From NCBI RefSeq assembly GCF_000469155.1, contig NZ_AWXE01000004.1:1-64000 (forward strand): a stretch of 64,000 nucleotides of DNA. Reading direction: 5' to 3'. Each line of letters starts with the position of its first letter. The stretch's first letter is position 1. The DNA comes from Candidatus Micropelagos thuwalensis. Lineage in GTDB: Bacteria > Pseudomonadota > Alphaproteobacteria > RS24. The position numbers and the translations under genes are program-made. Of the stretch, positions 1,619-25,799 are shown piece after piece. The notes beneath the pieces were generated by a model. That model did not search any database. It was not told the DNA's origin and worked only from the letters and a program-made list of their open reading frames with translations.

Positions 1619-2437
1619 TTAATGTTTTCTTAAACCGTCAACCAGCACCATATGCGGCACGGTGAGCGCGGCCAGACCAATAAAAAGCCCCGTAGTTAAC
1701 CCCTCCGAGAAATGATCATGCGCCTGAAGCGCAAACAAAAAAATCAACGCGATGGGCAGAACTGAAAACAGCACAATTTGACCAAGATGACCCGATTTAA
1801 TGAAACCACCTTCAATCTGAGTATTCAGCACCCTAAAATGCCGAACGGAATGCACACAGCAAAAATAAATCGCAAAAGACCATAATGGCGGTAAAATGAA
1901 ATACAGCACGACAAGAAACAATAAAAGTGTCACCTCACTGCCCCCAGTTTTAGGCAGATAGGAAAGCATAATTCCAAAAGCTGCCAACCATATCGGCAGT
2001 AAAAAGATAATGAAGAGTATCAGATAAGAAGCAGCCTGACCCGATATGAGAACAAATACATCATTAACCGGAATTGGATGGAATAACGGAATGAGCAGAA
2101 CTGGGCCGCCGCCCATGGCAATTATGCGCGCCCAATAATGAAACCGGCTTTGAGATTGGGCCCCTTTTGCTATCGAGTCTGTCGCCGACACATCACCCAG
2201 ACCAAAATGGATGCAGGATTGGATAAGAAACAGTAAAAGACCCAGCACCGGGAAGAAATACCACAAAACCAAAACCATTCCCGCAATAACGAGATAAGAC
2301 GTAACAAAAATTACCCAGCCTTTTGTCGTGGGCTGGAAACTTTTAAAGGCGAGTAAACCGTCTCCCGCCCCATGGGGCAAACCGACGAGCATGATAAATA
2401 AAACCGGAAGCAAATCGATAAGTGTCATATGGGACAT
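1619..2437 (-). CDS. blh: Beta-carotene 15,15'-dioxygenase (Brp/Blh family)
   Basis: Integral membrane iron enzyme that cleaves beta-carotene symmetrically into two retinal molecules, the chromophore of microbial rhodopsins. The 272-aa product is almost wholly hydrophobic helices and carries the family signature GLPHGAGDGLLAF near residue 19, with further His residues in HFGLGD and CVHSVRHFRVL as likely iron ligands. Its ATG shares one base with the crtY stop (TAATG), so it is the translationally coupled last gene of the crt operon. No rhodopsin gene is visible in the window, so the user of the retinal must be encoded elsewhere or be something other than a rhodopsin. Confidence 0.92.
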   Translation of the reverse strand: MSHMTLIDLLPVLFIMLVGLPHGAGDGLLAFKSFQPTTKGWVIFVTSYLVIAGMVLVLWYFFPVLGLLLFLIQSCIHFGLGDVSATDSIAKGAQSQSRFHYWARIIAMGGGPVLLIPLFHPIPVNDVFVLISGQAASYLILFIIFLLPIWLAAFGIMLSYLPKTGGSEVTLLLFLVVLYFILPPLWSFAIYFCCVHSVRHFRVLNTQIEGGFIKSGHLGQIVLFSVLPIALIFLFALQAHDHFSEGLTTGLFIGLAALTVPHMVLVDGLRKH

Positions 2438-3579
2438 TAAAATCTGACAATACTTTTCAAAAACGGCCTGGACGGCATGGCGTTAATTGTCATTAGCTTC
2501 GGCACAAAACCTGATCGCCCATTCATAAATCTTGCAAAATAATCCGCCTGAACTTTCGACGCCATGCGGGTAAAGAAATGTGACGCCAATTCGGGTTTTT
2601 TGTTCAGCACATCCAACATAACATCATCCATCCACCGTTCAAAAAAATCAGCACCCGCTTCCGGCAAGCCCCAAATAAGCGTTTCACGTTTCGCATAATC
2701 ATAAGCCTGTCGGCTAATCTGAGCAAAAGCATAGGAACTCGAGGCCCGCATCGCATTGGCAGGCAAGCCAAATGGAATGCATCCATCATTGTGCTTTGGT
2801 TTCACCTGCGACATCGGCAAAACGCCTTCTTCTTCTTTCAATATCGTGACTTGCTCACCTTTCAGATGCAAAGACCGATTAATATATTCTGCAATCTGCT
2901 CCCTATACCACTCCGGCTCATTTGGCCTTTGCGAAAATACCGTCGACTCAATAAAGGCTTTCTTTTCAGTAAAAGGCAAAACATACATGAAGTGTATGCC
3001 GTCTTCCTGAGACACACGAAAGTCCATCAACATAACCTGACCCGGGTTAAAGGTGTTTTTTGAGACCTTAATGTGCTGGCCTAGAAAATGCTGCTTCATG
3101 CAATCGTGAGGCGTAATATAATTCACAGTATCGAATACATGATGTGCCGTCACCGTCTGCTCATCGCGCATGAGCATGCGCGTATAATTTTCATGAATAG
3201 AGGTTTTCATTACCGTGCCATTTATAAATCTAACATTTGCTTTGGAACATTTATCTGCCAATGCTTTCATGTAAGTTGCGGATGAAACGGCATAATAATG
3301 GTAGTCTTGTCCGCGCATAACATGTGCATTACCCGGCTCGGCAATCTGCCAGTGCCACCACTGCGATAAGGCATGTTCGCGCGCCAGTTCAAGATGCGGG
3401 CTTCCATTATCCCAGAAACCCCAAATATGATCCGGCTTTGGCATACCGTCATCTACAACCAGAATTTTGAGATTATGGAATTGTGAAAGATGATAGGCGA
3501 GGCTTAAACCTGCAAGCCCACCCCCGATAATTCCTACATCGGCACGACGCCTTTGTTTAGCAATGCGACGACCGGACAT
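2437..3579 (-). CDS. crtY: Lycopene beta-cyclase (CrtY type)
   Basis: Flavin-dependent, non-redox cyclase that turns both ends of lycopene into beta-rings, giving beta-carotene for Blh. An N-terminal dinucleotide-binding motif GIIGGGLAGLSLAYHL lies near residue 18, and the CrtY-type signatures IWGFWD, MLMDFRVSQ and IESTVFS follow. ATG 3579 is preferred over a TTG at 3591; either way the gene starts inside the end of crtB (23-35 nt overlap). It ends on the shared base with blh. The length of 380 aa is normal for the family. Confidence 0.92.
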   Translation of the reverse strand: MSGRRIAKQRRRADVGIIGGGLAGLSLAYHLSQFHNLKILVVDDGMPKPDHIWGFWDNGSPHLELAREHALSQWWHWQIAEPGNAHVMRGQDYHYYAVSSATYMKALADKCSKANVRFINGTVMKTSIHENYTRMLMRDEQTVTAHHVFDTVNYITPHDCMKQHFLGQHIKVSKNTFNPGQVMLMDFRVSQEDGIHFMYVLPFTEKKAFIESTVFSQRPNEPEWYREQIAEYINRSLHLKGEQVTILKEEEGVLPMSQVKPKHNDGCIPFGLPANAMRASSSYAFAQISRQAYDYAKRETLIWGLPEAGADFFERWMDDVMLDVLNKKPELASHFFTRMASKVQADYFARFMNGRSGFVPKLMTINAMPSRPFLKSIVRF

Positions 3580-4522
3580 GCGGCAAACCAATTAGATGTT
3601 TATGGAGTTCAGATGAATGCTTAACTTTTTTTGTATATCTAAACCTTACGTCAATTAAGGCAGAGAAACTTGCAACGATTTTTGCTCCTGGCCCAGCAAC
3701 CTCACGGGTAGGCCAGCTATGAAAATTTTTATGCCGCATGCTATGACCAATACTCTGATAGGCTCGACCCGCTACCGCAATAGCTGTTCGCGCCCGGGGG
3801 GGAAGATAAGGCAACCCATGAAAGCCTGAGTCATAATATTTATCGGCAAGTCGCAATAAACGATAAAGAGATAATTGCACCAAATGACTTATTTCGGTTT
3901 CAGCATCATCTGCGGCGGCCTTGCAGATTTCTGCGGCAGATAATTCAGCGCACCAGTCAGCTGGGATATAACGCCGTCCCATACGAGCATCTTCGGCAAC
4001 ATCGCGGGCAATATTGGTGAGTTGCATTGCGATGCCCAAATCAATGGCATGGGCATAAGCATCTTCATCATAACACCCCAGAACTGAACACATAAGCACG
4101 CCAACAGTTCCGGCAACACGGTATGCATAATTTAACAAATCAGCTTCGCTTTGTAATTCGGCAGGCTCTTTGTCACCAATCAGACCTTCCAGCAACGCGT
4201 TGAGGGCTGACAATGACAAATGATTTGTATTGGCAAAATCCAGAAATCTTGCAAACTCATCCATGTGACCCGGAGGCATGACAGCTCCTGATAATTTTTT
4301 CTGCATGGTCTCAATGCGCGTATAACCATGCGCCAACCCGTCATCTGCCAGATCATCTAGGTAACGACAAAACGAATAAAGTTGCGCCGCTTTGTCACCA
4401 TTTTCCTTACCCAAAAAACGCCGTGCCCAGTTAAATGTTTTACCATGTTTGGCGAGCGTTGCCGCTGAGTCTTCATAAGGAGAAAAAATCTCACTTTCAG
4501 AAAAAGTCGCTGGTCCGTTCAT
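3557..4522 (-). CDS. crtB: Phytoene synthase
   Basis: Condenses two geranylgeranyl diphosphates head to head into 15-cis-phytoene via prephytoene diphosphate. Both Mg-binding Asp-rich motifs are present: CRYLDDLADDG at about residue 52 and NIARDVAEDARMGRRYIP at about residue 168. The length of 321 aa is typical of squalene/phytoene synthases. Its ATG overlaps the crtI stop by four bases (ATGA), indicating translational coupling. Confidence 0.95.
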   Translation of the reverse strand: MNGPATFSESEIFSPYEDSAATLAKHGKTFNWARRFLGKENGDKAAQLYSFCRYLDDLADDGLAHGYTRIETMQKKLSGAVMPPGHMDEFARFLDFANTNHLSLSALNALLEGLIGDKEPAELQSEADLLNYAYRVAGTVGVLMCSVLGCYDEDAYAHAIDLGIAMQLTNIARDVAEDARMGRRYIPADWCAELSAAEICKAAADDAETEISHLVQLSLYRLLRLADKYYDSGFHGLPYLPPRARTAIAVAGRAYQSIGHSMRHKNFHSWPTREVAGPGAKIVASFSALIDVRFRYTKKVKHSSELHKHLIGLPHVRSSHC

Positions 4523-6075
4523 TCACCCGCCTCCGCCAAAACATCAGAAGCAAGTTCGTCTGAGTATGATTGCGACTGCAGATTTGACTGAGCCGGTATC
4601 ATTTTCTCCAAAGCTTTCGCAGAACTTAAAACACCGGGCAGTCCCGCTCCCGGATGCGTTCCCGCGCCAACAAAATAAAGATTGCCGATATCCGGATCCC
4701 GATTGTGATATCGGAACCATGCTGATTGCCTGAACACCGGCGCGATAGAAAAGCCTGCTCCATGCGTCGCGCGATATTGTTTTTCAAAATCGCCCGGATG
4801 CATCCAGAAATCCGCGGTTACATGTGACTCCAGATCCGGCATGATTGTCTCTGAAAGGGCTTTGACAATACGGTCACGCAATTCAGAACCATAAACATCC
4901 CAGTCAATATTGCCCTGCAAATTCGGCACCGGGCAAAGAATATAAAAGCTATCACACCCCTCCGGCGCAAAAGAAGGATCGGTTGCAGTCGGGCGATGGA
5001 GATAAAGAGAAAAATCATCTGTCGCAATTTGCTTGTTGAAAATATCATTCAGCAAACCTTTAAAACGTTCACCAAGCCAAATGGTGTGATGTGCCACATC
5101 TGGATATTGCCGTGTGGTACCAAAATAAAGGACATACAGACCCATCGAATATTTGGTTAATGCTTCTGGAATAATTTTCTTAGGACGCAAAAATGACTTG
5201 CCTCCTACAGGCATCATTTCACGATAGACCGTAGGTGGATCGGCGTTGCAAACAACAAGGTCTGCTAGCATTTCACGGCCATCCGTACATTTAATACCAG
5301 TAACTTTTTTGCCACTGACAACAATTTCCTCAACATCTGCACCGGTATGAATGGCAACACCGTGTCGCCGCATCAATTTTTCGAGTTCAGTGACGAGCTT
5401 ACCGGTTCCTCCCATGCAAAAATGCACACCCCATTTGCGCTCAAGATAATGTATTAACGCATAAATACTCGTTGTGTCGTATGGATTGCCGCCAACCAGT
5501 AACGGATGGATGGATAAAGCCTGCCGTAAATATGGATGCGTAATATATTTTTTCACAAACTGGGAAACCGTTAGATCGCTCCGCAACTTCAAAAGCGCGG
5601 GGACTTGTTTCAACATGTCTGTAAATTTTAAAAACGGTTGATCTGCAAGCTTTTCAAACCCGACCTCAAAAATTTCACGGGAAGCATCAAGTAATCTGCG
5701 ATAACCTTCAATATCTGCTTCACGGTATTTAGCCATGCCTGCTTCAAATTCGGCCATGTCATCCCCATAATCAAAATCCGATCCATCAGGGAAATGAAAT
5801 CTGTACCATGGTGACACAGGTACAAATTCCAGATGGTCAGAGAGCTTTTCATCAAAAAGTGAAAACAGGTCTTCAAACATAAAGGGCGCAGTGATAACAG
5901 TTGGGCCAGCATCATGACGGAAACCATCTTTTTCAAAGACTTGAGCCCGCCCGCCAAGACTGTCCAACCGTTCCACCAAATCCACGTGATACCCAAGCGC
6001 ACGCAATCTTAACGCAGCACCAATTCCACCAAATCCAGAACCGATAACCAGGGCCTTGGGAAGATATTCGTTCAT
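4519..6075 (-). CDS. crtI: Phytoene desaturase (lycopene-forming)
   Basis: FAD-dependent CrtI-type desaturase that takes phytoene to lycopene. The N-terminus shows the FAD-binding Rossmann motif VIGSGFGGIGAALRLRALGY, followed by a glutamate (VERLDSLGGRA). The C-terminal bacterial-type phytoene dehydrogenase signature NLYFVGAGTHPGAGLPGVL is intact. At 518 aa it is slightly longer than usual because of a short polar tail after KALEKM. It lies 12 bp after crtE and overlaps crtB by four bases. Confidence 0.95.
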   Translation of the reverse strand: MNEYLPKALVIGSGFGGIGAALRLRALGYHVDLVERLDSLGGRAQVFEKDGFRHDAGPTVITAPFMFEDLFSLFDEKLSDHLEFVPVSPWYRFHFPDGSDFDYGDDMAEFEAGMAKYREADIEGYRRLLDASREIFEVGFEKLADQPFLKFTDMLKQVPALLKLRSDLTVSQFVKKYITHPYLRQALSIHPLLVGGNPYDTTSIYALIHYLERKWGVHFCMGGTGKLVTELEKLMRRHGVAIHTGADVEEIVVSGKKVTGIKCTDGREMLADLVVCNADPPTVYREMMPVGGKSFLRPKKIIPEALTKYSMGLYVLYFGTTRQYPDVAHHTIWLGERFKGLLNDIFNKQIATDDFSLYLHRPTATDPSFAPEGCDSFYILCPVPNLQGNIDWDVYGSELRDRIVKALSETIMPDLESHVTADFWMHPGDFEKQYRATHGAGFSIAPVFRQSAWFRYHNRDPDIGNLYFVGAGTHPGAGLPGVLSSAKALEKMIPAQSNLQSQSYSDELASDVLAEAGE

Positions 6076-6087
6076 GTGACAGTTAAC

Positions 6088-7182
6088 CTAACTGGCTGTG
6101 TTGGAGGTTGACGATGTGCGATTGATTTTCTGGCTTGCAGCATAGAGATAATCCGTAACCGGCGAAAGGACAGGTTTAATATCGTATTCATGATCATTGA
6201 GATCTTTTTCAACCTCTGCCAGCAAGGATGAAATTTTATCTGCCGCCAATTCTCCGCCGTTTATAAAAAGTTCTTGCATCCATTTTTCATCTGTATGCTC
6301 GCAAACCATACCTTGCATAAATTTTTCATCAAATTCCTGGCGCGATCCATTGACCAAACTGTCTCTGAAAAGAATAACAACAGCGTTGGGCGATTGTCTC
6401 AAAACATCTCCACCCTGTCGCGCAGCCCCATCTGTACCCATTAGATTTTTGATGTCATTGGTAATTTGATAAGCAAGGCCAAGATTACCAAAAACATTTT
6501 CCAAACTGTGATAATCCTCATGCAAACTTGCAAGGAGGTATATACCCTCGACAGGAATACTAATTAGTTGCCCGGTTTTCCCCGAGACAATTCGACTATA
6601 ATGCGCCCAATTAGGATAGGCAGAAGATACAAATTCGGCGGCTTGCCCAGTTGAAAGCGCAGACATACCTTTTGCTAGCAAGGCCGCGCTCGCCGCGTGC
6701 GAACCGGTTAGGGAATAAGTCAGACGGTCAGCCTCTGCGGCATGCACAAATGACTGTGCAACCAACCAATCACCGAGACAAATAGCCTGCTGAAGCCCAA
6801 AAGCTTTCCATATGGTCTCTTGGTTTCGTCGGCTGGTATCTTCATCACAAATATCGTCATGCAGAAGTGAGGCATTATGCAAAAATTCGACACTTAAGGC
6901 CCATTGCATTGCAATGTCAGGGTTTAAATCAAGCATATTGCCAGCGGCAAGAGCGATTTGACCACGGATAAGCTTACCGGGTTCAGCAAAATGATGCATG
7001 GCAGCGGCATTTAAGGGATGGTCAGCAGGTGGCATCTGGCTTTTAATATTCGAAAGCAGATCATGAGACATCTCTTTGAGATTATGGGAATTTTTTTGGA
7101 GATGCTTATAAGAAACATGCGAGTCAGAACGAGTCTGAAACGCCTCCATTCCCTCCATAAGCTCAGCTAACAAACCGGACAT
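6088..7182 (-). CDS. crtE: Geranylgeranyl diphosphate synthase-like polyprenyl synthase
   Basis: Trans-prenyltransferase expected to make the C20 precursor for phytoene. The first aspartate-rich motif is intact (LLHDDICDED, near residue 117), as is the GKLIRG substrate-binding motif. The second motif, normally DDxxD, reads YQITNDIKNL, so the first and last Asp are Asn. The protein has about 50 extra N-terminal residues compared with short CrtE enzymes. AGGAG lies just upstream of the ATG. It is the first gene of the crtE-I-B-Y-blh operon; product length is inferred from context. Confidence 0.88.
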   Translation of the reverse strand: MSGLLAELMEGMEAFQTRSDSHVSYKHLQKNSHNLKEMSHDLLSNIKSQMPPADHPLNAAAMHHFAEPGKLIRGQIALAAGNMLDLNPDIAMQWALSVEFLHNASLLHDDICDEDTSRRNQETIWKAFGLQQAICLGDWLVAQSFVHAAEADRLTYSLTGSHAASAALLAKGMSALSTGQAAEFVSSAYPNWAHYSRIVSGKTGQLISIPVEGIYLLASLHEDYHSLENVFGNLGLAYQITNDIKNLMGTDGAARQGGDVLRQSPNAVVILFRDSLVNGSRQEFDEKFMQGMVCEHTDEKWMQELFINGGELAADKISSLLAEVEKDLNDHEYDIKPVLSPVTDYLYAASQKINRTSSTSNTAS

Positions 7183-7640
7183 ACTCTACTCCTCAACAAT
7201 TCCGACTGTAAATTCGGCTACCCTCCCAGGTATAAGCCGAACTGAGCCTATACAGTCGCTTAACAGGATTCAGTTAACAAAATCCTGAACAAATATGATG
7301 TCGGTGAATCAAAAAAGCTTCTCATACTTTTAAAAAAGCCGCAAAACCACCGCATCACAAGCAATGCAACAAGTTAAATACTGTTACATTAACACTATGC
7401 GAACACGAATTGAGCCGGTCAAGCACTATTCGTAACAAATTTGTAACAAGTCATTCCATAGCCATCATCAAAAAGCTTATGGGAAAAGACCCTATAGAAA
7501 AAGGCAGGAGAATTATCTCCATTCTTTCTTACTATTTATTCTCTTAAAACACGCACATAATTGAAAAATGAGAGATGGTTCCTGATTGCCAAGCTGTTTC
7601 AAATCCATCACAAAAATAGAGCGCAAATAATGGAGATACT
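7183..7640. other. Divergent promoter region between crtE and the P450
   Basis: A 458-bp AT-rich spacer that must hold promoters for the leftward carotenoid/retinal operon and the rightward P450. It contains three copies of a GTAACA/TGTTAC hexamer (listed separately). I see no credible small gene; the short reading frames here lack ribosome binding sites. Confidence 0.6.
7382..7448. promoter_or_regulatory. Cluster of GTAACA/TGTTAC elements (possible operator)
   Basis: TGTTAC at 7382-7387 and GTAACA at 7432-7437 and 7443-7448. The last two are direct repeats 11 bp apart, one helical turn, with shared flanks (GTAACAA). The spacing and position between divergent genes suggest a regulator site. 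No regulator gene adjoins it. Confidence 0.25.
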
Positions 7641-8846
7641 ATGCCAACCAATATAGCTGATGTTCCAAAAAACCTACTAAGTGATTTTGATTTGGTTGCA
7701 GATCCTGAGATGATGCGTAACCCACAACAAAGAATGACAGATGCACTCGTCAACGATGAACGGAATATTTTCTACACACCTCATAATGGCGGACACTGGA
7801 TTGTCACCAATTATGAAATGGGGCACGAAATTCTGAGCAATCCGGATCTTTTCGGTTCATTCCCAATTGGTGTACCGGCTAATTACGAACAACGACCTCG
7901 CTTAATACCTTTGGAAAGCGACCCTCAGAGCCATCCTCGTTACCGTCGACTGCTGCTCCCAGTATTCGCACCCAATATCATCAGTAAGATGGAAGATAAA
8001 ATTCGCAAGCGTACAATAAATGTCCTTGATGAGGCTCTACAATCTCCTGAGATTGATTTTTTGTGGGATATTGCTAAGCCCATTCCAACAGGTGTGTTTC
8101 TGGAAATGCTCGGCCTACCCCAGCATATGCAACCGCAATTTTTTGAATGGGAGAACGGTTTTTACAGAGCTGAAACCGTCGAGGCACGTGTCGATTATGG
8201 CCAAAAAATCGCGCAATATTTAAGCCAAGCGGCAGAAGACCATGTTACCAATCCGCGCGACGACGTCATGAGCATGTTACTTGAGGTAGAGGTCGAAGGC
8301 GAAAGACTATCTCGCGACGAGGTGGATGCAATTTGTTATTTGTTGTTTCTCGCCGGGGTAGACACAGTTGCCGCCATGCTAACCTTCATCGCCAATTACC
8401 TCGCGCAAAACCAAGACCTCTATCAAAAGATAAAGGCAGATAAAGAATTCCTGGAAAAAGCAACTGATGAACTCCTCCGCATGCACGCCTTCATCAATCT
8501 CAATCGTATATGTGAGGCCGATACAGAATTTCACGGTGTGCAGTTCAAACAGGGCGATAATATCGTTGTTCCATCATTCGTTACTGACCGTGATGCTACG
8601 ACTTTTCCGGATCCACATAATTTTAATCCCGAGCGCTCAAAAGTTGAACGTACTATGCACCACGCTTTTGGCGATGGCCCACATAAATGTATCGGTATGC
8701 ATCTTGCCAAATTGGAGATTAAAATTGTGCTGGAAGAATTTGCCAAACGGGTTAACGCATTTTCAATCTCCGATGAAAGCAAAATTAAAGCCCATGGCGG
8801 CACAACAATGGGCATGGATAATTTACCCATCACATGGACAGCCTGA
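7641..8846 (+). CDS. Cytochrome P450
   Basis: Soluble bacterial heme-thiolate monooxygenase of 401 aa. The I-helix oxygen-activation motif AGVDT, the K-helix ExxR (DELLRM), and the heme-binding loop FGDGPHKCIG with the ligand Cys are all present, so it should be active. No ferredoxin or reductase is adjacent. A ribosome binding site GGAG precedes the ATG by about 7 nt. It is transcribed divergently from the carotenoid/retinal operon. A role in oxidising carotenoids or retinoids is a context guess; the substrate cannot be read from the sequence. Confidence 0.93.
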   Translation: MPTNIADVPKNLLSDFDLVADPEMMRNPQQRMTDALVNDERNIFYTPHNGGHWIVTNYEMGHEILSNPDLFGSFPIGVPANYEQRPRLIPLESDPQSHPRYRRLLLPVFAPNIISKMEDKIRKRTINVLDEALQSPEIDFLWDIAKPIPTGVFLEMLGLPQHMQPQFFEWENGFYRAETVEARVDYGQKIAQYLSQAAEDHVTNPRDDVMSMLLEVEVEGERLSRDEVDAICYLLFLAGVDTVAAMLTFIANYLAQNQDLYQKIKADKEFLEKATDELLRMHAFINLNRICEADTEFHGVQFKQGDNIVVPSFVTDRDATTFPDPHNFNPERSKVERTMHHAFGDGPHKCIGMHLAKLEIKIVLEEFAKRVNAFSISDESKIKAHGGTTMGMDNLPITWTA

Positions 8847-11004: not shown

Positions 11005-12273
11005 TTAAGCTTCGGCTTTGACAGGGAAAGCATCAAAATAAAATTTGAATTTTTCTCGGAGTTCTGCAGGTTCAATTCCAAAATCACGTTTTAAATGATA
11101 TTCAATCTGCCCATATTTGCCACGGGGATGATTATCTATAAAATTTTGCAATTCGGAGCGCGCCTCATCCGTTAAATCCAATCCGGCCTTCTCATAAATA
11201 ACCTCAATCGTCTTAAAAGCATCAGCCATAAATTCGTGGAACAAAATATCAATGCTCTGCGCCGCAGGAATTTGCTCGCGATCACGCACACATGCCTCAA
11301 GTAATCTATAGATTCGGTCTGCCCAATAGGCGCCAATTTCGGGCACATCAATACTGTCACGAATTGCGCGGCGTCCATAAGCGACCATAGTTGCCGCAGA
11401 TTGGATAACCGAAACCGGGTCACGATGCGTAATTGGAATAATCGCATCGGGAAATACTTCTTTCAGCACCCGTAATTGCTCAAGATGTTGGGGGCATTTC
11501 AGCACCCAGCGCGTTTGTGCCCCACTTACATCACCATCCTGCCAGGTGAGAATTTTCAAAACAGTTTTCATATATTCATAATGCGGGGTTTGATCGGTTG
11601 AAAAATAATAATCACGCCAACGGGGTGAGGTGCTTAGCCACTCAAAATTATAGGAGGCAAAATCTGGCCCCATTAATTCAAGTTCTTCATGAATATGCTC
11701 AGGGTTCATCGGATGCATCGCTGCCATAAGCGGGCTAATTTGTTGCATAGCTTGCCACTGGGCATCACATCTTTCATATCGCGGGTCTTGACCAGTTTCG
11801 CCCGCCTCCTCTTCGGGTGTTGGGACTGGCTCATAAGACTCCCATAAAGGTAATGATCTCAGGCGGCTATCCGCCGCCAATAGATTCAGTAAATGCGTTG
11901 TACCGGAACGTGGCAACCCAGCCACAATGATTGGTGCTTCAATTTTAACGTCATGTATTTCAGGGTGACGGGTTAACAAGTCCTGTATCAGCAGACGGTT
12001 TTTGGCAAAGGTCACCAGCTTTCCTCGCAACCCTAGAAGCCCCAGATTATTAATCGTCTTATCCTGGCTCCATTCCTCACACAGCAAGGTGAGCCGCGAC
12101 ATAAACTCCATATCACCAAAATCATCAAGAGAAAGTGTGTCTTTGGCTTCGGTTATAATATCATCGGGGTTGAGCACTACAGACATTTCCGCCACCATCT
12201 CCATGGCGGCTTGTGCCGCTTCGGTCAGAACGGGTGCAGATAAATCGTCAATGGTTATGCTATTCTTGTCCAT
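11005..12273 (-). CDS. Sulfotransferase family protein (Sulfotransfer_3 type)
   Basis: Predicted PAPS-dependent sulfotransferase of 422 aa. The 5'-phosphosulfate-binding loop is clear at about residue 106 (GLPRSGTTHLLNLL), and a 3'-phosphate-binding region is seen in ITHRDPVSVIQS. The segment between them, including WESYEPVP and HPMNPEHIHEELELM, is typical of this group, which acts on small molecules. The ATG at 12273 is chosen because GGAGGGG lies just upstream of it; the ATG at 12285 contains that ribosome site. The acceptor is unknown. It follows the same direction as the TonB receptor. Confidence 0.85.
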   Translation of the reverse strand: MDKNSITIDDLSAPVLTEAAQAAMEMVAEMSVVLNPDDIITEAKDTLSLDDFGDMEFMSRLTLLCEEWSQDKTINNLGLLGLRGKLVTFAKNRLLIQDLLTRHPEIHDVKIEAPIIVAGLPRSGTTHLLNLLAADSRLRSLPLWESYEPVPTPEEEAGETGQDPRYERCDAQWQAMQQISPLMAAMHPMNPEHIHEELELMGPDFASYNFEWLSTSPRWRDYYFSTDQTPHYEYMKTVLKILTWQDGDVSGAQTRWVLKCPQHLEQLRVLKEVFPDAIIPITHRDPVSVIQSAATMVAYGRRAIRDSIDVPEIGAYWADRIYRLLEACVRDREQIPAAQSIDILFHEFMADAFKTIEVIYEKAGLDLTDEARSELQNFIDNHPRGKYGQIEYHLKRDFGIEPAELREKFKFYFDAFPVKAEA

Positions 12274-12392
12274 AAACCCCTCCATATTTAAAAAATTCTA
12301 CACCAAGACATAGTTGAAGGGAACGCCAACATTCAAACGCCCCAACACCTTAAAACCTTTACGCGTCAGTGAGAATATGAGTAAATTTTACT

Positions 12393-17159: not shown

Positions 17160-17954
17160 ATGACTAAAATATGTTTTGACCATTGTGTAATTTTTGTTCC
17201 AGATCTTAATCTAGCCATTCAACAATTCTCAGAGCTAGGCTTTATAGTAAGTAGGGGGGGTGAACATAAATATACATGCAACGCATTGATTATTTTTAGA
17301 GATCAAACATATATTGAAATTATTGCCCTGAAAAAATTTTGGTTTCGACCAATAATCAGGTTTGCGGCTAAGATTGGATTGTTAAATTACTATGCAAACA
17401 AAAAAACAGACACCTCATGGAGATTAATTCGCTGGATTACAAAAAGCTATGGCGCATTGGATTGGTGTCTTCGCACAAAAAATATTCAGTATGCTCTCAA
17501 TAGCTTAGCTAGAAACAAAATTCCTACTTTAAAAAAATTAGCATACCAAAGAAAAAGACCCGACGGTCAAATTGTTCAATGGGAATTGGGATGCTCCAAA
17601 GATTATGATTTACCATTTTTGATAGAAGATAAGACCCCAATAAATTTAAGAATAGCTCAAGATAATAATACTAAACACACTAATGGTGCATTGGGTTTTA
17701 AAAAAATTATTCTATCGTCGAAAAATACCGAAAAAATAGCTTATGGCTTAAGCGCTCTATTAAATGAAAATCAAAATCATAGCAGAAAATTACCTAAAAC
17801 TTTTTCAATTGGAAACATAATGATTAGCTTAAAACAAGAGGCTAATCCAAAAAGTTGTTTTAGTTTAGAGTTGAGCTACTCTGGAAACAAACGTAAGTGC
17901 ATGAACACCAAAAAAACATTTGGAGCCGTAATTTGGTTAACTCCAAATATATAG
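17160..17954 (+). CDS. VOC/glyoxalase-like domain protein
   Basis: 264-aa protein whose N-terminus reads FDHCVIFVPDLNLAIQQFSE, then FIVSRGGEHKYTCNALIIF and TYIEIIAL, matching the first half of glyoxalase-like (VOC superfamily) domains. The function is unknown. Its codon use is strongly AT-rich, unlike the gpg genes to the left and like the island to the right, yet it lies just outside the tRNA-Thr repeat. It may be a horizontally acquired gene or the remains of an older insertion. The start is ATG 17160 with no strong ribosome site. Confidence 0.65.
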   Translation: MTKICFDHCVIFVPDLNLAIQQFSELGFIVSRGGEHKYTCNALIIFRDQTYIEIIALKKFWFRPIIRFAAKIGLLNYYANKKTDTSWRLIRWITKSYGALDWCLRTKNIQYALNSLARNKIPTLKKLAYQRKRPDGQIVQWELGCSKDYDLPFLIEDKTPINLRIAQDNNTKHTNGALGFKKIILSSKNTEKIAYGLSALLNENQNHSRKLPKTFSIGNIMISLKQEANPKSCFSLELSYSGNKRKCMNTKKTFGAVIWLTPNI

Positions 17955-17996
17955 AGAATTAACGCTTTCACAAGATTAATTATCGATAGGGTTATG

Positions 17997-18052
17997 GAAA
18001 AATGGTGCCGGCACACGGACTTGAACCGCGGACCCTCTGATTACAAATCAGA
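17997..18052. repeat. Left direct repeat (att-like), 56 bp
   Basis: Identical to 25922-25977. It spans the anticodon arm, T-arm, acceptor 3' strand, CCA and six bases downstream of the tRNA-Thr copy at 18003-18078. Identity stops in the variable position just before the D-arm, as expected for an attachment-site crossover within a tRNA 3' half. Confidence 0.8.
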
Positions 18053-18078
18053 CTCTCTACCAACTGTGTTATACCGGC
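18003..18078 (-). tRNA. tRNA-Thr(TGT), degenerate copy
   Basis: Same anticodon arm, T-arm and acceptor as the tRNA-Thr at 25928-26003, with encoded CCA. The D-stem reads ACAC/GAGA instead of GCTC/GAGC, so the 10-25 and 12-23 pairs are broken, and position 26 is G instead of A. The acceptor stem still pairs fully (GCCGGTA/TGCCGGC). It is probably a decaying duplicate and may not be functional; the sister copy looks fully intact. Confidence 0.7.
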
Positions 18079-18414
18079 AAACTATTGCTCCAACTATCTT
18101 TTTTGCATTTTGCTGGCTAGCAATTATTCTACTCGCGCCTGTTTCCGATAAATTTTTTGTTTTAAGGTCTATTTATTTTTCGAAAATACTCTTGGGGAGT
18201 GATTTCCGGCTAATGATAAGTGCTAAGCTCCCAGACATTTTTATGAAAGTTTTCAGACACTGATCAATAAACACTCAGTAGCATAATACTTCGCATACAT
18301 GGTTTTATTATCGCAACACAATGATACTATAATCTGTGCACAAAAAAAGCTTACGAAAGTGCAAAATCTAAAATGTTAATTTTGTTGTCGTTAAAAGACT
18401 TATTGGTAATCAAC
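18079..18414. other. Non-coding spacer at left end of island
   Basis: 336 bp, AT-rich, between the degenerate tRNA-Thr and the 3' end of the GT-C-like gene. I see no supported gene, tRNA fragment or strong hairpin with a T-run. Any integrase that once sat here is gone. Confidence 0.6.
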
Positions 18415-19904
18415 TTATTTTCTAAAGACCATATATTCAGGGTTAGCGAAAATTTTTATATGAGATGATAACAGATTAGAAGTATCAGCTTTGTTACTGG
18501 CAACCACTAGATTATAGGGATACTGTCTTGTATTTAGGCCTTTCCCATTGAAAACACTTTCTTTGAATTTAAGCCTTCTATACCATTCTACTAAACCCTC
18601 TTTAGAAGAAGGTATGTACTTGAATGTAACCAGCGTTGGTCTATTCAATTTTCTTTCTACATCAAAAAGAATTTTTTCTATCTTTGGGTCAACCAAAATT
18701 ATATCCTCGGGGCCACTATTTTCAGACAGAAATTTATACATTTCCGCCTTTGCTGGATTTGTTTCTCGCCACTCGTGAACCTCCCGAAGGCTACTGATAG
18801 ATCCATTAATCAAAAAAAACGGTAAAAGAACAATAATTAAAATTTCACCAAAATTTCCGGCGCTGTTAGCGTCCATTTCTTTTAAGAGAATACAAGCATA
18901 AAAAAGTATCAAAAGTAGCAATAAGCTAGTAAAGCGGTAGGGATATAGTTTAGCGAAAGCACCGTCCCTATCAAAAAACGACACCAATAAAAAACCAAAA
19001 TTAATATTATTGATGATAACGCAAGAATTCTTAAGCGTTGATATATATGACCACTTGGTTCTCTTTTGATAGCCCAAAAACTTATCAAGATACCCAAAAA
19101 AATTGTTATCCCGGGCAGCCATTGCAGAATAAATCTTGGTAAACTATAGAAAGGAAGAACCATTTTATATTGTCGGATATAACTATAAATATATGACGGA
19201 GACGGAGTATCATCACCCTGGATAAAACCAGAACCATAAAACCCAGAGATAGCTACTAACAATATTGGACAACACAACAAAAAGTAACCGGACATAACCA
19301 GGGTAGGAATTCGAAACTTCCCGTCATATATAAGAATTGCTAGAGCTAATAATGCTATCCACTGAGCCCCAACAAGTAAATGGAAGTAGGTTGCAATCGC
19401 CAGAAACATAACCATTAATTTAAGATTGTTCTTCAAATAATGATTTACGCCTAATATGACAAAATAATATGCAAATATTTTTGCTTCGAAATCTTCAAAC
19501 AGCCACTCTCGGCCAATAAAACTTTGCCCCAGTAAGACAAATATAATAATAGATAACAGTCCATATAAATTTGATAGCTCCAAGGTTTTACATAATTTGT
19601 AAATCGCATGACTGAAAAGCAGGCTGGCTAAAAAGGATCCAATAATCTGGGTATTTTCGAATCCAATCTTTATTACCATAGACCCGATAAGCGAGTCAGA
19701 AATCATCCTGTAGTCGCCAGAAAATATAAAGGAGGAGTATTCTCCGTTCCAACTAGTATCTAAGAACTTTTTTGCTAGGCCATAGTACATTTCTTCGTTG
19801 CCACTTAGGACCCCAAATGGAGACAGAGTTAACAAAATTAGGGCAAACAAATAATATTGAAAAAATTTACTAAAACTGGCTAAAACGTGGCTTAAATTGA
19901 TCAC
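18415..19904 (-). pseudogene. GT-C-like polytopic membrane protein, one -1 frameshift
   Basis: Two overlapping frames read as one protein of about 496 aa if a single base is added in the T6 run at 18973-18978. The first frame (from GTG 19904) has about eight to nine hydrophobic helices, and its first loop carries acidic residues (SGNEEMYYGLAKKF), as in GT-C glycosyltransferases using polyprenyl-phosphate sugars. The second frame continues with DRDGAFAKLYPYR, another membrane helix and a soluble C-terminal domain ending in MVFRK. The break may be a sequencing error, true decay, or slippage. The sugar transferase role is inferred from topology and neighbours. Confidence 0.65.
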
Positions 19905-20120
19905 GGCAATACCCTTTTTTAAATTAAAAATCCAAAATACTTAGTTTATTAAAAGCATTTTAGATTGCTGAAGAAGTCTACCACAGGTAGTAAATTTATC
20001 TAATGAAATTAAGGCAAAACATTTTCATAACAGTCCTTAATAAACTATAAAATTCGACTTTAGGCTGAATACCGAAATCGTCGTATTGAAGAAATTATAA
20101 GTAAGTTAAACGTATTAATT

Positions 20121-20570
20121 TTAGGTAGATAGTAAAACTTGAAATAATAAAAACTGCCCTTCAGTTAAAAACAGTGCAATGATTACCCCGAGTAGCCAAC
20201 CGGCTAAAACCTCTTTTGGCTTGTGGCCAATAGAGGTTCGCAAATTTTTTGCTTGTTTGTTTACTTTTCCCAATTCAGAAGCAATAAGTAAGGCATGAGC
20301 CTCAATTTTTTGTCTTAGATCCATTGAGTCAATTGCAACTATGATTGACACCGTGAAGGCAACTGCGGTGACTGGTGATGAAAATCCCTCCCCAATCCCA
20401 ATTGTAAAAAAAGTAGACGAGCAAATACAATTATGAGTACTTGGCATACCTCCCATGCCAATATTTTTGAATGCCAATTTTCGGTATGTTAATGAATTTA
20501 AGAAAAACTTTAAACCACCCGCAACAAAATATCCAACTATTGGAGCTAAAATATAATATGGCGTTTGCAA
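20121..20570 (-). CDS. Divergent PAP2 family phosphatase-like membrane protein (DUF212)
   Basis: 149-aa membrane protein with the divergent PAP2 pattern: GGMPSTHNCICSS near residue 40, an acidic DSMDLRQKIEAHA segment, and SIGHKPKEVLAGWLLG near the C-terminus. These His/Ser/Arg positions correspond to the acid phosphatase active site. The start is a TTG two bases from the stop of the upstream epimerase, so it is coupled to it. In mycobacteria a PAP2 protein dephosphorylates polyprenyl-phosphoryl-ribose-5-phosphate; here that role is inferred from the UbiA-type neighbour. Confidence 0.78.
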   Translation of the reverse strand: MQTPYYILAPIVGYFVAGGLKFFLNSLTYRKLAFKNIGMGGMPSTHNCICSSTFFTIGIGEGFSSPVTAVAFTVSIIVAIDSMDLRQKIEAHALLIASELGKVNKQAKNLRTSIGHKPKEVLAGWLLGVIIALFLTEGQFLLFQVLLST

Positions 20571-20571
20571 A

Positions 20572-21624
20572 TCAAAATTCCTGATTGTTTTTAAGGCACC
20601 AATCTATGCTCCGGCGCATACCCTCATCTATGCTACAAATAGGTTGAAAACCTAATTCACTTTTGGCTTTGCTTATATCACATGAGATAGTTTGGTTCAT
20701 TTCAGATAATACATGGATCTTCTGATTATAAAGACCAGCCGATTGAGTTAGCATATCAGCTATCCTAGCAAAATCAGAGATGAATGATGGTACATGAAGA
20801 TTATTTTCTTTAACTTCAATTTTAAATTCATTTCTCATAACATTTTTGACTGTTTCTACAATTTCTAACATGGTGTATGGGCGTTCATCAGCTATCCAAT
20901 AAATTTCTCCAGCTGCTTTTTTTGAGTAAGCAGCTAATAATATTCCTAAGACTAAATTATCAATAAACCCCATAGAACGCTTATTTAGGCCGTCCCCCAT
21001 AAGAGGAAATTTCCCGTCCCTTATCATTCTAAAAAAATCTGTCTGCCGTGGCGGTTGCCCAGGGCCATAAAACCAAGGCGGTCGAATAATAGATATTTCA
21101 GGGTAACCTTTAGAATTTATCGCTCCTTGAAGAAATGTCTCCATAACTTGTTTTGATTTTCCATATTTCATATATGGATTAAACGGTGATCGCTCAGTAA
21201 AAAGATGCTCCGGAGACGGATTGCAACCAATCGGAGAATTAGAAGAAATAACTAAAAATCTTGACGCTTTAAATGTCGCTGCCGCATTTAGAAGATTTTT
21301 AGTTCCATATACATTTATACGACTAAAATCTGATGTAAAAAGTTTAGGGTGAATAATTCCTGCAGTATGAATAAGGAGACAGCCCTCCTCATCTTTTAAC
21401 AGTGCACGGCAGTCATCTAGATTAGTTATGTCACCAACAATAATATCAGCACCAAGATCAACTAAATCATCAAAGTTGTCACCGCTCTTCACTAAGCATT
21501 TTATTTGTTTTCCACCACTACCAATTGCACCTAGTTCTTTAATGCCACGGGTTAATGCTAACGCTAATCTACTTCCCAACCATCCAGTTGCACCCGTCAA
21601 AATAATTTTTGAGTAATCGATCAT
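20572..21624 (-). CDS. NAD-dependent epimerase/dehydratase family protein (extended SDR)
   Basis: 350-aa extended short-chain dehydrogenase. The Rossmann motif GATGWLGSRLALAL is at residues 11-16, catalytic Ser lies in LVISSNSPIG, and the YxxxK pair is YGKSKQVME. PWFYGPGQPP and DNLVLGILLA fit NAD-dependent epimerase or 3-beta-HSD-like enzymes. The substrate is not known. Its place between a phosphoribosyl-transferring UbiA protein and a PAP2-like phosphatase suggests reduction or epimerisation of a lipid-linked pentose. Confidence 0.82.
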   Translation of the reverse strand: MIDYSKIILTGATGWLGSRLALALTRGIKELGAIGSGGKQIKCLVKSGDNFDDLVDLGADIIVGDITNLDDCRALLKDEEGCLLIHTAGIIHPKLFTSDFSRINVYGTKNLLNAAATFKASRFLVISSNSPIGCNPSPEHLFTERSPFNPYMKYGKSKQVMETFLQGAINSKGYPEISIIRPPWFYGPGQPPRQTDFFRMIRDGKFPLMGDGLNKRSMGFIDNLVLGILLAAYSKKAAGEIYWIADERPYTMLEIVETVKNVMRNEFKIEVKENNLHVPSFISDFARIADMLTQSAGLYNQKIHVLSEMNQTISCDISKAKSELGFQPICSIDEGMRRSIDWCLKNNQEF

Positions 21625-21636
21625 TAAATTGTTTCT

Positions 21637-22509
21637 TTAAAAGTAAATAATAATTATGAAATTTATTATCCAACAAATTACGGTTAATCTTATTCCTCTA
21701 TTTTTCAAAACTAAGGATGTTGGATCGTCGCCCAACCCATCAACCGCGAGTAATTTTAAATAAATTAATATACCTAATAACACAAATACTGAGGTTGAAA
21801 GAACCTCTTCGCCAAACTGAGTTATTGCATATGAGGAAGTACAGAATATTATATATGAAGTGAAAACAGCTGCGGCCGCAAAAGTATTAATCTGATCAAG
21901 AAATGTCAAATTGTAACCTTTTAAAGAATGCCTTTTTAAGTTTTGATCGTTACTCTGAACTAAATCTCCTCGTCTTTTACCTACAGCCAACATCAGTGAT
22001 AGTAAACCTGTACACATTATTATCCAGGGAGAAAGGCTTATAGCTAATGTAGATGCACCAAACATTAAGCGAATAACAAACCCGCTGGCCACCATCAAAA
22101 GTTCAAGAATAGGTATATGCTTTAAGCCAAAAGAATATCCTAGATTTATGATAGCATATAAAAATAGCAACAAGTTAGCTGTTGTAGAATAATTGAATGA
22201 TATACTTAAAGCAATAATACAACTAAGAAGCAAAAGCATAATTGTAACTGCTTCAAATTTACTTATCGCTCCAGAAGCCAAAGGACGTATCTTCTTTTTT
22301 TTGTGAAGTTTGTCAGCCTCAATATCTGTCAAATCGTTTAGGATATAAACAGAACTCGATAACAACGCGAATGAGAGGAAACTAATAAAACAAATTATAG
22401 TATCAGGTGATATAAAATTTCCTGAAAAAAATAAAGGCGCAACTACAAAGCCATTTTTAATCCACTGCTTAGGCCTCAATAACAACCAATAATTAATAAA
22501 ACGTCTCAT
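21637..22509 (-). CDS. Polyprenyl-phosphate phosphoribosyltransferase-like UbiA family protein
   Basis: Integral membrane prenyltransferase-fold protein of about 290 aa with roughly nine helices. Its motifs match the decaprenyl-phosphate:PRPP phosphoribosyltransferase branch (mycobacterial Rv3806c type): LLRPKQWIKNGFVVAPLFFS at the start, the Asp-rich YILNDLTDIEADKLH followed by KKIRPLASG, and LMLAVGKRRGDL in the second half. That enzyme starts synthesis of polyprenyl-phosphoryl-arabinose or ribose. The ATG at 22509 is chosen over a TTG three bases upstream. It follows the GMC gene by 10 bp. Confidence 0.82.
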   Translation of the reverse strand: MRRFINYWLLLRPKQWIKNGFVVAPLFFSGNFISPDTIICFISFLSFALLSSSVYILNDLTDIEADKLHKKKKIRPLASGAISKFEAVTIMLLLLSCIIALSISFNYSTTANLLLFLYAIINLGYSFGLKHIPILELLMVASGFVIRLMFGASTLAISLSPWIIMCTGLLSLMLAVGKRRGDLVQSNDQNLKRHSLKGYNLTFLDQINTFAAAAVFTSYIIFCTSSYAITQFGEEVLSTSVFVLLGILIYLKLLAVDGLGDDPTSLVLKNRGIRLTVICWIINFIIIIYF

Positions 22510-22519
22510 CAACCCTCAA

Positions 22520-24007
22520 TTATTTTCCATTTTTTTCTATAAAATTTTTTGCTACACGTAAAGCTAGAGCCATGACACTTGCTTGCGGGTTAACCGAGGG
22601 CGCTTCAGGTATTAAGCTGGCATCTGCAACATACAAATTTTCACTACCCCATATTTTTCCGTAAGAGTTCGCGGCACTTATTTTTGGATTTTCACCCATA
22701 CCAATGCTACTAAAAATATGAATTGTCATAAGATTACACATTTTACGGGGCAGACCTCCAGATAGAGCCGAATACATTGCGTCAATGGAGTCCCAAGCAT
22801 CCATGCCTGCAATCGATGGTTGTATCTTTTTTGCGCCACTTTCAAATAAACAAACTGCTAAGCTTTGCAGCCCAACTTCTAGGTTCTCCCAATCTTCTTC
22901 GGAAAGTTGAAAGCTAACATATGGATGTTTAGAATATGGAATGGATTTAATCTTGCCTACACCTGTTCCTCTTGCCATAGCATAATACATCCCCATATTC
23001 GAAAAAGATGGCATCATATGCGATCTAAATTCCCAGTCCTCAGCTAAAAACATTCCGAAAGTTGGTAGCGAAGCTATGGAACCACCGATTCTAAAATTAG
23101 GTAAAAATTCTGTTATTGCATAAAGAGGCAGTCGGCTTCTCTGAGCATTAATTTTCTCATCAAATTCTGCTAAAATACGTATTGTTGGGTGTAATTTAAA
23201 ACCGCTTCCAACGGGGGCTTTGTATCCACTTTTAAGCAATAAGTTTGGTGTTTGAGTTGCACCTCCACATACAAAAAAATACTTAGCCGTAATTTTAATA
23301 GTTTGATAAATACCTTCTTTATTTTTCACTCTAGCCCGAGCACTTTTAACAGAAGTTTTAGATTTAATCAGCCTTTCTACTCGACAATGAGAAATTAACC
23401 TTCCACCATTATCTGTATATTGCCGAAGAACTGATGTCGACATTGACTGTTTTGCGCCAGTTGGGCACCCAATTGAACAATGATTGGTGCCAACGCATTT
23501 TTTCTGGCCGCGCTCCAAGGGCATGACCCCCCAATTTTTTAATTCACCAGCTTTTCGCAGTATTTCTGAGTGAAGGCCAAGACTCCCATCAGTAAATGAT
23601 GCGTTTACAAGCCTAGCAGCTTGATCATAAAAAGGGAGAAGCTTTCCAGCTGAAAAATTTTCTATGGAGTATTTTGAGGCCCATTTTTCCAATAATTCTT
23701 CGGGGGTCCTTTGAAATATAGCACTATTAATTTCAGTGCTACCCCCTACACAACTTCCCTCAGCATATGCAACAGGCGATGATCCATTTGCTAACGTCAG
23801 CCCTCCAGCTCGCCACATTTTATTGAAACTTTTTGACAATGTTTCTGGAGCATTTTCAAATGGAATAGATGCGCCTTCTTCAAGCATAAGCACATCATAA
23901 CCTGCATTTACTAATTCATTACCAACTGATGCTCCACCAGCGCCAGAGCCAATAACTAATACATCACAATCAAGGTTTTCAATTTTATGAAGATTGTGAT
24001 CAGACAT
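22520..24007 (-). CDS. GMC oxidoreductase, long-chain alcohol oxidase-like
   Basis: 495-aa FAD enzyme. The FAD motif VLVIGSGAGGASVGNELVNAG begins at about residue 15 (only the core is quoted here: GSGAGGASV), GGSTEINSAIF covers the flavin, and HIFSSIGMG plus PSVNPQASVMALA hold the C-terminal active-site His/Asn region. A Cys-rich stretch CVGTNHCSIGCPTGAKQS is typical of fatty-alcohol-oxidase-like GMC enzymes. ATG 24007 overlaps the stop of the upstream small gene (ATGTCTGA). It may oxidise a lipid-linked sugar or alcohol; this is inference from the island context. Confidence 0.82.
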   Translation of the reverse strand: MSDHNLHKIENLDCDVLVIGSGAGGASVGNELVNAGYDVLMLEEGASIPFENAPETLSKSFNKMWRAGGLTLANGSSPVAYAEGSCVGGSTEINSAIFQRTPEELLEKWASKYSIENFSAGKLLPFYDQAARLVNASFTDGSLGLHSEILRKAGELKNWGVMPLERGQKKCVGTNHCSIGCPTGAKQSMSTSVLRQYTDNGGRLISHCRVERLIKSKTSVKSARARVKNKEGIYQTIKITAKYFFVCGGATQTPNLLLKSGYKAPVGSGFKLHPTIRILAEFDEKINAQRSRLPLYAITEFLPNFRIGGSIASLPTFGMFLAEDWEFRSHMMPSFSNMGMYYAMARGTGVGKIKSIPYSKHPYVSFQLSEEDWENLEVGLQSLAVCLFESGAKKIQPSIAGMDAWDSIDAMYSALSGGLPRKMCNLMTIHIFSSIGMGENPKISAANSYGKIWGSENLYVADASLIPEAPSVNPQASVMALALRVAKNFIEKNGK

Positions 24008-24371
24008 TCCTTTTTTTCCTATAAATTTCAATTCTTTCTTTACCAGTTTTTTCGCCCAACAATGACAAAACTTCTTCATTCTCCATAAATTTTATAATGA
24101 CTAGAGAACGAAATAACCTTTCAACCATTTTTCCACCAGGTATTTTGCGCCAAAAAACAATAAATGAAGGGCCAGCAATTCGTATAGTGACTGCCATTAA
24201 AAATACCAGAACTAGAATAGGCACGAGAATGAAATATGGCTGTAGGCTTATTTGTTTTTGAATGAAAATAGATGCGTCGTCCACGATTTTTGTTTTTTCT
24301 ACTTCAGAAACTACTGGGAAATCTGGAAGCAATGCATCTGATATTAACTTGTAAGATTTTTGCAAGCTCAT
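24000..24371 (-). CDS. Small one-helix membrane protein coupled to the GMC oxidoreductase
   Basis: 123 aa. The N-terminal part (LISDALLPDFPVVSEVEK) resembles the short helical region that precedes the flavin domain in fused long-chain alcohol oxidases. A single hydrophobic helix (about residues 45-68) is followed by a basic tail ending RIEIYRKKRNV. The gene ends inside the start of the GMC gene with an 8-nt overlap, so the two proteins are likely made together, perhaps as a membrane-anchoring subunit. This is my reading, not a named family. Confidence 0.6.
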   Translation of the reverse strand: MSLQKSYKLISDALLPDFPVVSEVEKTKIVDDASIFIQKQISLQPYFILVPILVLVFLMAVTIRIAGPSFIVFWRKIPGGKMVERLFRSLVIIKFMENEEVLSLLGEKTGKERIEIYRKKRNV

Positions 24372-24396
24372 AATAAATTCTATCCAATTTCTTTTT

Positions 24397-24753
24397 TTAA
24401 GTTGTTAAGGAATAAGAAAGCATGCAAATACCAATAATAATTACGAATATACCTAATACTTGGATAAAGCTAAGACTTTCACCAAGAATAAGGAATGATG
24501 ATAAAGATAATATTGCGAAACCACTAGCAGCCAAAATTGGGTAACCAACGTTGACTGGTAGATAATCAAGTGCTTTAGCAAATAAAATCACATTAAGGGC
24601 ATAGAAGGTTAGTGCTAATAAGAAATAAGGTGATATGTATTGCTCATATAAACTGCTATCGTTAGATATACCCTTTCGACTTATTTTTAATAATATATTA
24701 CCTATTGTAGAATTAATGCCTGCCAATAAAACAAAAAACATTGCCCACTTCAT
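24397..24753 (-). CDS. SMR/EmrE-like four-helix membrane transporter
   Basis: 118 aa with four hydrophobic helices and the family pattern AKALDYLPVNVGYPILAASG followed by LGESLSFIQVLGIFVIIIG. SMR-type proteins include multidrug exporters and the ArnE/ArnF pair linked to undecaprenyl-phosphate-aminoarabinose translocation. Inside a polyprenyl-sugar operon a lipid-linked sugar flippase is the more likely role, but drug export cannot be excluded. It lies between the frameshifted epimerase and the GMC small subunit. Confidence 0.8.
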   Translation of the reverse strand: MKWAMFFVLLAGINSTIGNILLKISRKGISNDSSLYEQYISPYFLLALTFYALNVILFAKALDYLPVNVGYPILAASGFAILSLSSFLILGESLSFIQVLGIFVIIIGICMLSYSLTT

Positions 24754-24768
24754 AGGCTTAACCTTCCA

Positions 24769-25799
24769 TCAAACAAGAAAGTAGGGAACAATTTGTAATA
24801 TACGTTGTTTCATAGCTGATTGGTGTTTTGAACCAACTATTTTTCCATTTAAAATGTCGGATCGATTATCACAATACCAATCATATGAAGCTGCTAACAT
24901 TTCATCATTCGAATACTTAGCTTCAAAACCTAACGATTTATAAGCTTCATCGGTGTTAAAAAACATACTATTACCATACATTAAAGAGTGATACGCGCCA
25001 AGCGGCGAAATACCTAGAGCGCTTGTGACGTTCATACCTATTTCTGTCAATTTTGCTGGCACTGACTTTACTTGTGATTGGCTACCAGCATGACGAACTA
25101 AATTTTCAAGAGCATCTCTCATTGTGCCAAATCGATTTGTACCAATATTAAAAATACCATCAATTTTGGCATCGCCAGCAAGTATACATGCAGTAGCTAG
25201 GTCGTCTGAATGTACAAACTGATATATATTCTTACCAGACCCAATAACAGGAATATTCCGCCCTTGATAAATCCATTCAAATAAAATTTGAAAAATTCCA
25301 AGTCTGCCTGTTCCAAGCACAGTTCTAGGACGTATAATAGAGCAACTTAACCCTTTTTGAGAATATTCATGACACAAACTTTCTCCAGCCAATTTAGCTT
25401 TTCCATAATCTTCCTGGGGTTTAGGCTTAGATGATGAACTAACAGGGTTAGTATCAGGAATCCCAAAAACTGCACTAGAAGATGTATAAACAAATCGCTT
25501 TACCTTTTTTTTAAAACCTCATCTAGAAGGATTTTCATCCCTTCATAATTTACTGACCAAAAAAGCTTACGATCTTTTGCTATAGGAACTTGAGCAACAT
25601 TATGATGAATAACCTCTACATTCTCTAGCGCCTTAATAATTGAAATTCTATCCCTGATATCACCCTGAACGATAGTCAGATTGGGATGTTCATATTGCGG
25701 GGGATTTAAATCAAAACAAGTAACTTTATGTCCCGCCTTTAAAAGTCTAAGAACCAACGTCTCACCAAAAAAACCGGCTCCACCGGTGACCAAATACAT
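24769..25799 (-). pseudogene. NAD-dependent epimerase with -1 frameshift at an A8 run
   Basis: First frame 25799-25500 holds the Rossmann motif YLVTGGAGFFGETL and ends EVLKKR-stop. The next frame continues KRFVYTSSSAVFGIPDTNP, with catalytic Ser and YGKAK, to the stop at 24769. Adding one A to the run of eight at 25505-25512 restores a normal 343-aa extended SDR reading EVLKKKVKRFVYTSS. The coding strand reads A-AAA-AAA-AGG in the zero frame, a classic -1 slippery heptamer, so frameshifting or slippage is possible; a sequence error or pseudogene is the simpler explanation. First gene of the island operon. Confidence 0.75.

Follow-up and report, generated by a model that had tools for sequence, protein, structure and literature searches.

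The closest described counterparts of the locus considered here, in which a carotenoid and retinal operon (crtE-I-B-Y-blh) of Candidatus Micropelagos thuwalensis is faced by the gene of a cytochrome P450, are a gene cassette, a group of rhodopsins and a clan of P450 enzymes. The locus lies in the first 64,000 nucleotides of contig NZ_AWXE01000004.1 (hereafter, the window). With the proteorhodopsin and crtEIBY-blh cassette of genome G238 it shares the same five genes in the same order and the presence of a proteorhodopsin in the genome; however, the rhodopsin directly precedes crtE in G238, whereas here it is found approximately 100 kb away and the P450 is divergent from crtE. With the xanthorhodopsin-type antenna pumps, the organism would share a proton-pumping rhodopsin in a carotenoid-making cell, but those pumps have a glycine where the rhodopsin here has a phenylalanine. 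Finally, the P450 shares with the CYP101 clan (P450cam, CYP101D1/D2, P450cin) the fold, the P450 motifs and a match over most or all of its length, albeit its identity to the listed CYP101 chains, which are solved members only, is 26–28%.

The locus is likely an ordinary retinal operon supplying the unlinked proteorhodopsin. The P450 would then be a separate CYP101-clan monooxygenase, fixed in the genus, which most likely acts on a small cyclic terpenoid-like compound and stands beside the crt genes as a result of ordinary gene order.

Retinal operon and rhodopsin

The predicted crtE-I-B-Y-blh set ending in the retinal-forming enzyme was recovered as open reading frames (ORFs) with matching families (Table 1): the Pfam scores of crtE, crtI, crtB and crtY all exceed the cut-off, and Blh is above the curated cut-off of TIGR03753. 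The ORF limits give overlaps of 4 bases for crtI/crtB, 35 for crtB/crtY and 1 for crtY/blh, a pattern as in a translationally coupled operon. CrtE would convert prenyl diphosphates to geranylgeranyl diphosphate, from which CrtB would form phytoene; CrtI would desaturate phytoene to lycopene, CrtY would cyclize lycopene to beta-carotene, and Blh would cleave the latter to retinal. The retinal would charge the single proteorhodopsin, presumably acting as a light-driven proton pump.

A rhodopsin frame is indeed absent from the window, as stated in the original prediction, and its alternative that the rhodopsin is elsewhere proved right in the whole-genome search that it had called for. The genome (G000; 1,957,724 bases in 5 contigs, 99.4% complete, with the window at C4:1-64000) contains exactly one rhodopsin, encoded on the same contig 38 kb past the edge of the window and about 100 kb from blh; adjacency of the rhodopsin to the crt/blh genes is usual but not required. 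The protein is of the proteorhodopsin type, aligning near full-length with both blue and green proteorhodopsins (253–260 bits). In an alignment with green proteorhodopsin chains, read by hand, it retains the retinal-binding Lys together with the pump-pattern Asp, Thr and Glu, which correspond to D97, T101 and E108 in proteorhodopsin numbering. The tuning position is occupied by Gln, as in blue-absorbing proteorhodopsin; both the motif and the meaning of the tuning residue are treated in a part of PMC1821060. With a single proteorhodopsin in the same genome, the crt-blh operon has an obvious consumer and, thus, nothing is missing from it.

Rhodopsin is present in five of the six genomes of the genus, including the 56% complete G004, where neither blh nor the P450 orthologue was detected. 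Outside the genus, blh was found in 20 genomes of a class sample of 385 (22 including the genus), and the surroundings of blh were taken for 18 of these 20, leaving out G346 and G398. A rhodopsin falls within the examined stretch at 14 of the 18 clusters. At the other four (L115, L117, L122 and L123, the last on a contig of 6.4 kb), no rhodopsin was seen in the stretch examined, so that such an arrangement (4/18) is not rare. In the genus, a contig break occurs at most about 2 kb from blh in the window's genome, G001, G002, G003 and G005, and in the window tRNA-Gly and tRNA-Tyr are located at the contig edge (positions 1–700), which suggests a common assembly break.

Table 1. Features of the locus, its flanks and the rhodopsin loci (positions refer to the window unless a contig or locus is given)
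Feature	Position	Strand	Basis
blh, beta-carotene 15,15'-dioxygenase (retinal-forming)	1619..2437	-	PF15461 130.5 bits; TIGR03753 167.7 vs cut-off 95.25
crtY, lycopene beta-cyclase	2437..3591	-	PF05834 174.1 bits; below NCBIfam cut-offs
crtB, phytoene synthase	3557..4522	-	PF00494 171 bits; below NCBIfam cut-offs
crtI, phytoene desaturase	4519..6075	-	TIGR02734 545 bits vs cut-off 238
crtE, geranylgeranyl diphosphate synthase-like	6088..7182	-	PF00348 131 bits; below NCBIfam cut-offs
Conserved, foldable crt 5' leader, two hairpins (candidate)	7180..7325 (also taken as 7180..7388)	-	Fold z-score, pairing kept across five genomes
Candidate crt promoter TTGACC-17-CATAGT	7394..7422	-	Consensus scan; near-invariant in 5/5 aligned genus genomes
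Cytochrome P450, CYP101-clan, found only in this genus	7641..8846	+	PF00067 113 bits; nearest solved CYP101D2/P450cam
TonB-dependent receptor, convergent to P450	8865..10919	-	PF00593, PF07715
Sulfotransfer_3 family sulfotransferase	11005..12285	-	PF13469 130.7 bits
Rhodopsin, only one in the genome	G000:C4:102239-102880	-	PF01036 155 bits vs cut-off 24.6
Proteorhodopsin at exchange locus, blue-type (Gln)	L098:8230-8979 (G000); L111:9627-10379 (G005)		
Proteorhodopsin at exchange locus, green-type (Leu)	L099:6068-6820 (G001); L110:9330-10082 (G002)		

Identity of the P450

The description of the gene divergent from crtE as a P450 with its catalytic motifs was confirmed: AGxDT, ExxR and FxxGxxxCxG are all present in the translation, as AGVDT (residues 238–242), E277-R280 and FGDGPHKCIG with Cys350, and 458 bp separate the two genes. 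T242, E277, R280, G346 and C350 are invariant in 17 aligned P450s. The top sequence matches in the PDB are CYP101D2 (192 bits), P450cam (approximately 180 bits) and CYP125-type chains. The AlphaFold2 model has a mean predicted local distance difference test score (pLDDT) of 84.5, dropping below 50 at residues 82–88 and 90–97, presumably the B/C loop close to where the substrate enters. Superposed on P450cam, the model gave a Z of 47.4 and a root-mean-square deviation of 2.2 over 388 aligned residues with 28% identity, and other structures followed close behind. By sequence and fold, the enzyme thus belongs to the CYP101 clan, but its identity to the solved members, given above, falls short of the 40% that is customary for inclusion in a P450 family. 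Neither CYP175A1 nor CYP120A1, which are carotenoid or retinoid hydroxylases, turned up in the best 60 of 500 PDB matches or in the structural matches listed, which excludes neither.

The P450 is under strong purifying selection: in ten pairs, nonsynonymous divergence (dN) was 0.009–0.037 against a synonymous divergence (dS) of 0.16–1.55, with dN/dS of approximately 0.02–0.06, similar to CrtI. The genome contains four further P450 matches. One of them, at C5:1-19000 (L236), is in a cluster with FA_hydroxylase-family proteins where, by eye, a GMC-type oxidoreductase, a short-chain dehydrogenase (SDR) and an aldehyde dehydrogenase were also read from the ORFs.

Distribution of the P450 and gene order around it

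Orthologues of the P450 with 93–95% identity occur in G001, G002, G003 and G005, that is, in five of the six genus genomes with the window's own, and in all five the gene stands beside crt. Among the matches listed from named genomes, the best were from Alpha proteobacterium IMCC14465 (presumably a PS1-clade strain), PS1-clade bacterium MED-G50 and two further metagenome-assembled genomes. Outside the genus, the identity does not exceed 34% over most of the length in 61 relatives or in the class sample of 385 genomes (short segments reach 42%), or 37% for the best 80 of 136 matches in named genomes. No relative of this P450 was found on viral contigs. Of the family members outside the genus, G011 alone was found to have a crt-blh cluster. 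The cluster is split over two contigs, an ORF whose translation reads as AMP-ligase-like lies divergent from crtE, and the genome contains no orthologue of the P450.

The best 80 of the 136 matches represent 78 distinct loci, four in the genus and 74 outside. In their flanks, taken at up to 10 kb a side and in many cases shorter at contig ends, crt or blh genes were seen at none of the 74. Conversely, a search with the window's P450 as the query (E 1e-8) detected no P450 at the 18 other blh loci within the stretches examined. Neighbors sampled at 5 of the 74 loci included acyl-CoA, hydroxyacyl-CoA, alcohol and short-chain dehydrogenases along with SnoaL, Rieske and luciferase-like proteins. 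The idea that the rhizobial homologues belong to gibberellin (diterpenoid) operons was dropped because the neighborhood of one of them (L200) holds SnoaL, SDR and luciferase-like proteins beside genes read as nif.

What the constant vicinity of P450 and crt tells was judged by a synteny control, in which 54 largely non-overlapping ORFs of the window, each of at least 150 amino acids, were compared with the matching stretches of G003 and G001. Forty-seven of them are collinear in both. Since the gene order is generally conserved in the genus, the adjacency of P450 and crt there means little. The seven ORFs without a counterpart in these stretches form one block at 17160-25503; a UbiA prenyltransferase, a GMC oxidoreductase, two epimerases and a glyoxalase-like protein are among the six that were scanned.

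Retinal and carotenoids as candidate P450 substrates

The suggestion that the P450 may modify retinal or a carotenoid found no support, given the missing pairing at both the 74 P450 loci and the 18 blh loci. Moreover, the refutation proposed along with it, namely homologues lying mostly away from crt/blh and using terpenoid or steroid substrates, was pursued and went against a retinal role, the nearest solved relatives being camphor, cineole and sterol P450s. In its full form, this explanation places the P450 in the retinal/carotenoid pathway, where it would oxidize beta-carotene or retinal at the beta-ionone ring, producing a hydroxylated pigment or removing excess retinal under a control shared with crt through the 458 bp. 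It is consistent with the divergent layout kept in the five genus genomes that have either cluster and with the strong constraint on the P450, but the synteny of the whole region within the genus makes the adjacency uninformative. An RPE65-type cleavage oxygenase was found in none of the family genomes, and the three FA_hydroxylase-family proteins of G000 matched no carotenoid-hydroxylase model in NCBIfam (the presence of a CrtZ model there being unchecked), so no alternative ring hydroxylase is seen. These three proteins had been considered as CrtZ-like candidates and were rejected: for two, the NCBIfam resemblance is to ornithine-lipid hydroxylase, though far below its cut-off, and the third matches nothing there. 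As to chemistry, CYP101B1, C1 and D5 produce 4-hydroxy-beta-ionone, but the same portion of the source notes CYP101 enzymes for small substrates (PMC9655578). Overall, participation of the P450 in the retinal/carotenoid pathway appears unlikely.

A hydroxylated carotenoid might also serve as an antenna of the rhodopsin. In the part of PMC12308411 that deals with it, Gly at the position of Gly156 of xanthorhodopsin (XR) is the primary criterion for carotenoid-antenna binding. In an alignment of 19 rhodopsins, with the register set through XR (3ddl) and the column read by hand, all 11 family rhodopsins aligned have Phe at this position. The antenna role is therefore disfavored, and with it this use of a product of the P450.

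A more elaborate proposal joins the previously uncharacterized CYP101-clan P450 of the PS1 clade and crt-blh in a single module under divergent control. By hydroxylating retinal or beta-carotene on the beta-ionone ring, the enzyme would tune the supply of retinal to a proteorhodopsin that is encoded far away and can be exchanged. We hold this proposal to be very improbable. The literature search met no paper on blh with a P450 and proteorhodopsin, although such work may still be in print.

Several observations nevertheless weigh against an ordinary retinal operon with an independent P450. The 90% complete G003 has both blh and the P450, yet no rhodopsin was found there, which an assembly gap may explain. 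Within the family, the P450 orthologues are confined to genomes that also have crt-blh (5/5), and a single conserved intergenic region lies ahead of both the crt operon and the P450. The identity of the P450 orthologues to the window's is like that of CrtI and above that of Blh, CrtE and TonB, as a functional link would predict likewise. Furthermore, beta-carotene and retinal have the same beta-ionone ring, and hydroxylation of beta-ionone by CYP101-family enzymes is described in the portion of PMC9655578 already mentioned.

Region between crtE and the P450

The gap between crtE and the P450 measures 422–503 bp in four relatives. The candidate crt promoter in it (Table 1) came from a scan that overall found no excess of such sites, with 17 against 21.1 in shuffles. 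The crt leader has a fold z of −3.9 when 224 nt including the first crtE codons are taken, and of −1.8 for a 101-nt part alone. In its hairpins, 97.8% of the cells are paired across the five genomes. There is one compensatory pair, a count reached by 99 of 500 shuffles, and because of this the leader was set aside as a proven RNA element and stays a candidate. It has no match in Rfam, and a search of 28 family genomes with a model of the five crtE leaders recovered only those five, always before crtE.

TonB receptor and sulfotransferase beside the P450

Downstream of the P450 follow the convergent TonB-dependent receptor and the sulfotransferase (SulT), and the three genes form a block in 5/5 genus genomes compared. 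The P450 might work together with these two neighbors, hydroxylating a terpenoid or sterol, whether taken up or made by the cell, that would then be sulfated. Within the genus, synteny of the block is uninformative. Among the 74 distant P450 homologues, four have SulT-family genes of more than 100 bits in the flank (L155, L153, L158 and L181), compared to approximately 0.26 expected by chance from 52 SulT matches in 28 of the 74 genomes, all four included (hand arithmetic for 28 stretches of 21 kb). However, three of these loci seem to represent a single common gammaproteobacterial cluster, which makes the recurrence weak. All three SulT matches of the L155 genome fall in its P450-homologue locus. 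Seen from the other side, the stretches around the seven closest SulT relatives, several of them short, contain a P450 in one case only, about 7 kb away and with a glycerate-kinase-like gene beside the SulT, and weak TonB-like matches (20–23 bits) in two. The association of SulT and P450 is, thus, a lead and not a result, and a joint pathway of the three genes appears unlikely.

Rhodopsins in the sister genera and a probable exchange within the genus

Rhodopsin occurs in 23 of the 28 family genomes. In 18 of the 23 (for example, G008, G010, G012 and G013), no blh, RPE65-type gene or crtI was detected, the latter at E <= 1e-40, a threshold that strongly diverged copies might escape. All but one of the 18 belong to other genera, and 11 of these 17 are at least 90% complete by rounded figures. 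A bacterium that makes retinal without known retinal genes is reported in a part of PMC7734400.

Within the genus, one and the same locus with collinear flanks carries a Gln-type proteorhodopsin in the window's genome and G005 and a Leu-type one in G001 and G002, the two types being about 61% identical. The green-type (Leu) form is accompanied by a TonB receptor and a carbonic anhydrase. Between G002 and G005, DNA identity falls from 94.9% before the edge to 66% in the rhodopsin and recovers to 92% beyond; such a sharp drop and return points to a recent, sharply bounded exchange.

The rhodopsin located elsewhere in the genome thus resolves the apparent puzzle of a retinal operon seen without one, and the open question shifts to the sister genera, whose rhodopsins come with no detected crtI, blh or RPE65-type gene. 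For the genus itself, the comparison indicates that the proteorhodopsin is exchanged at one fixed site, with the retinal operon remaining in place.

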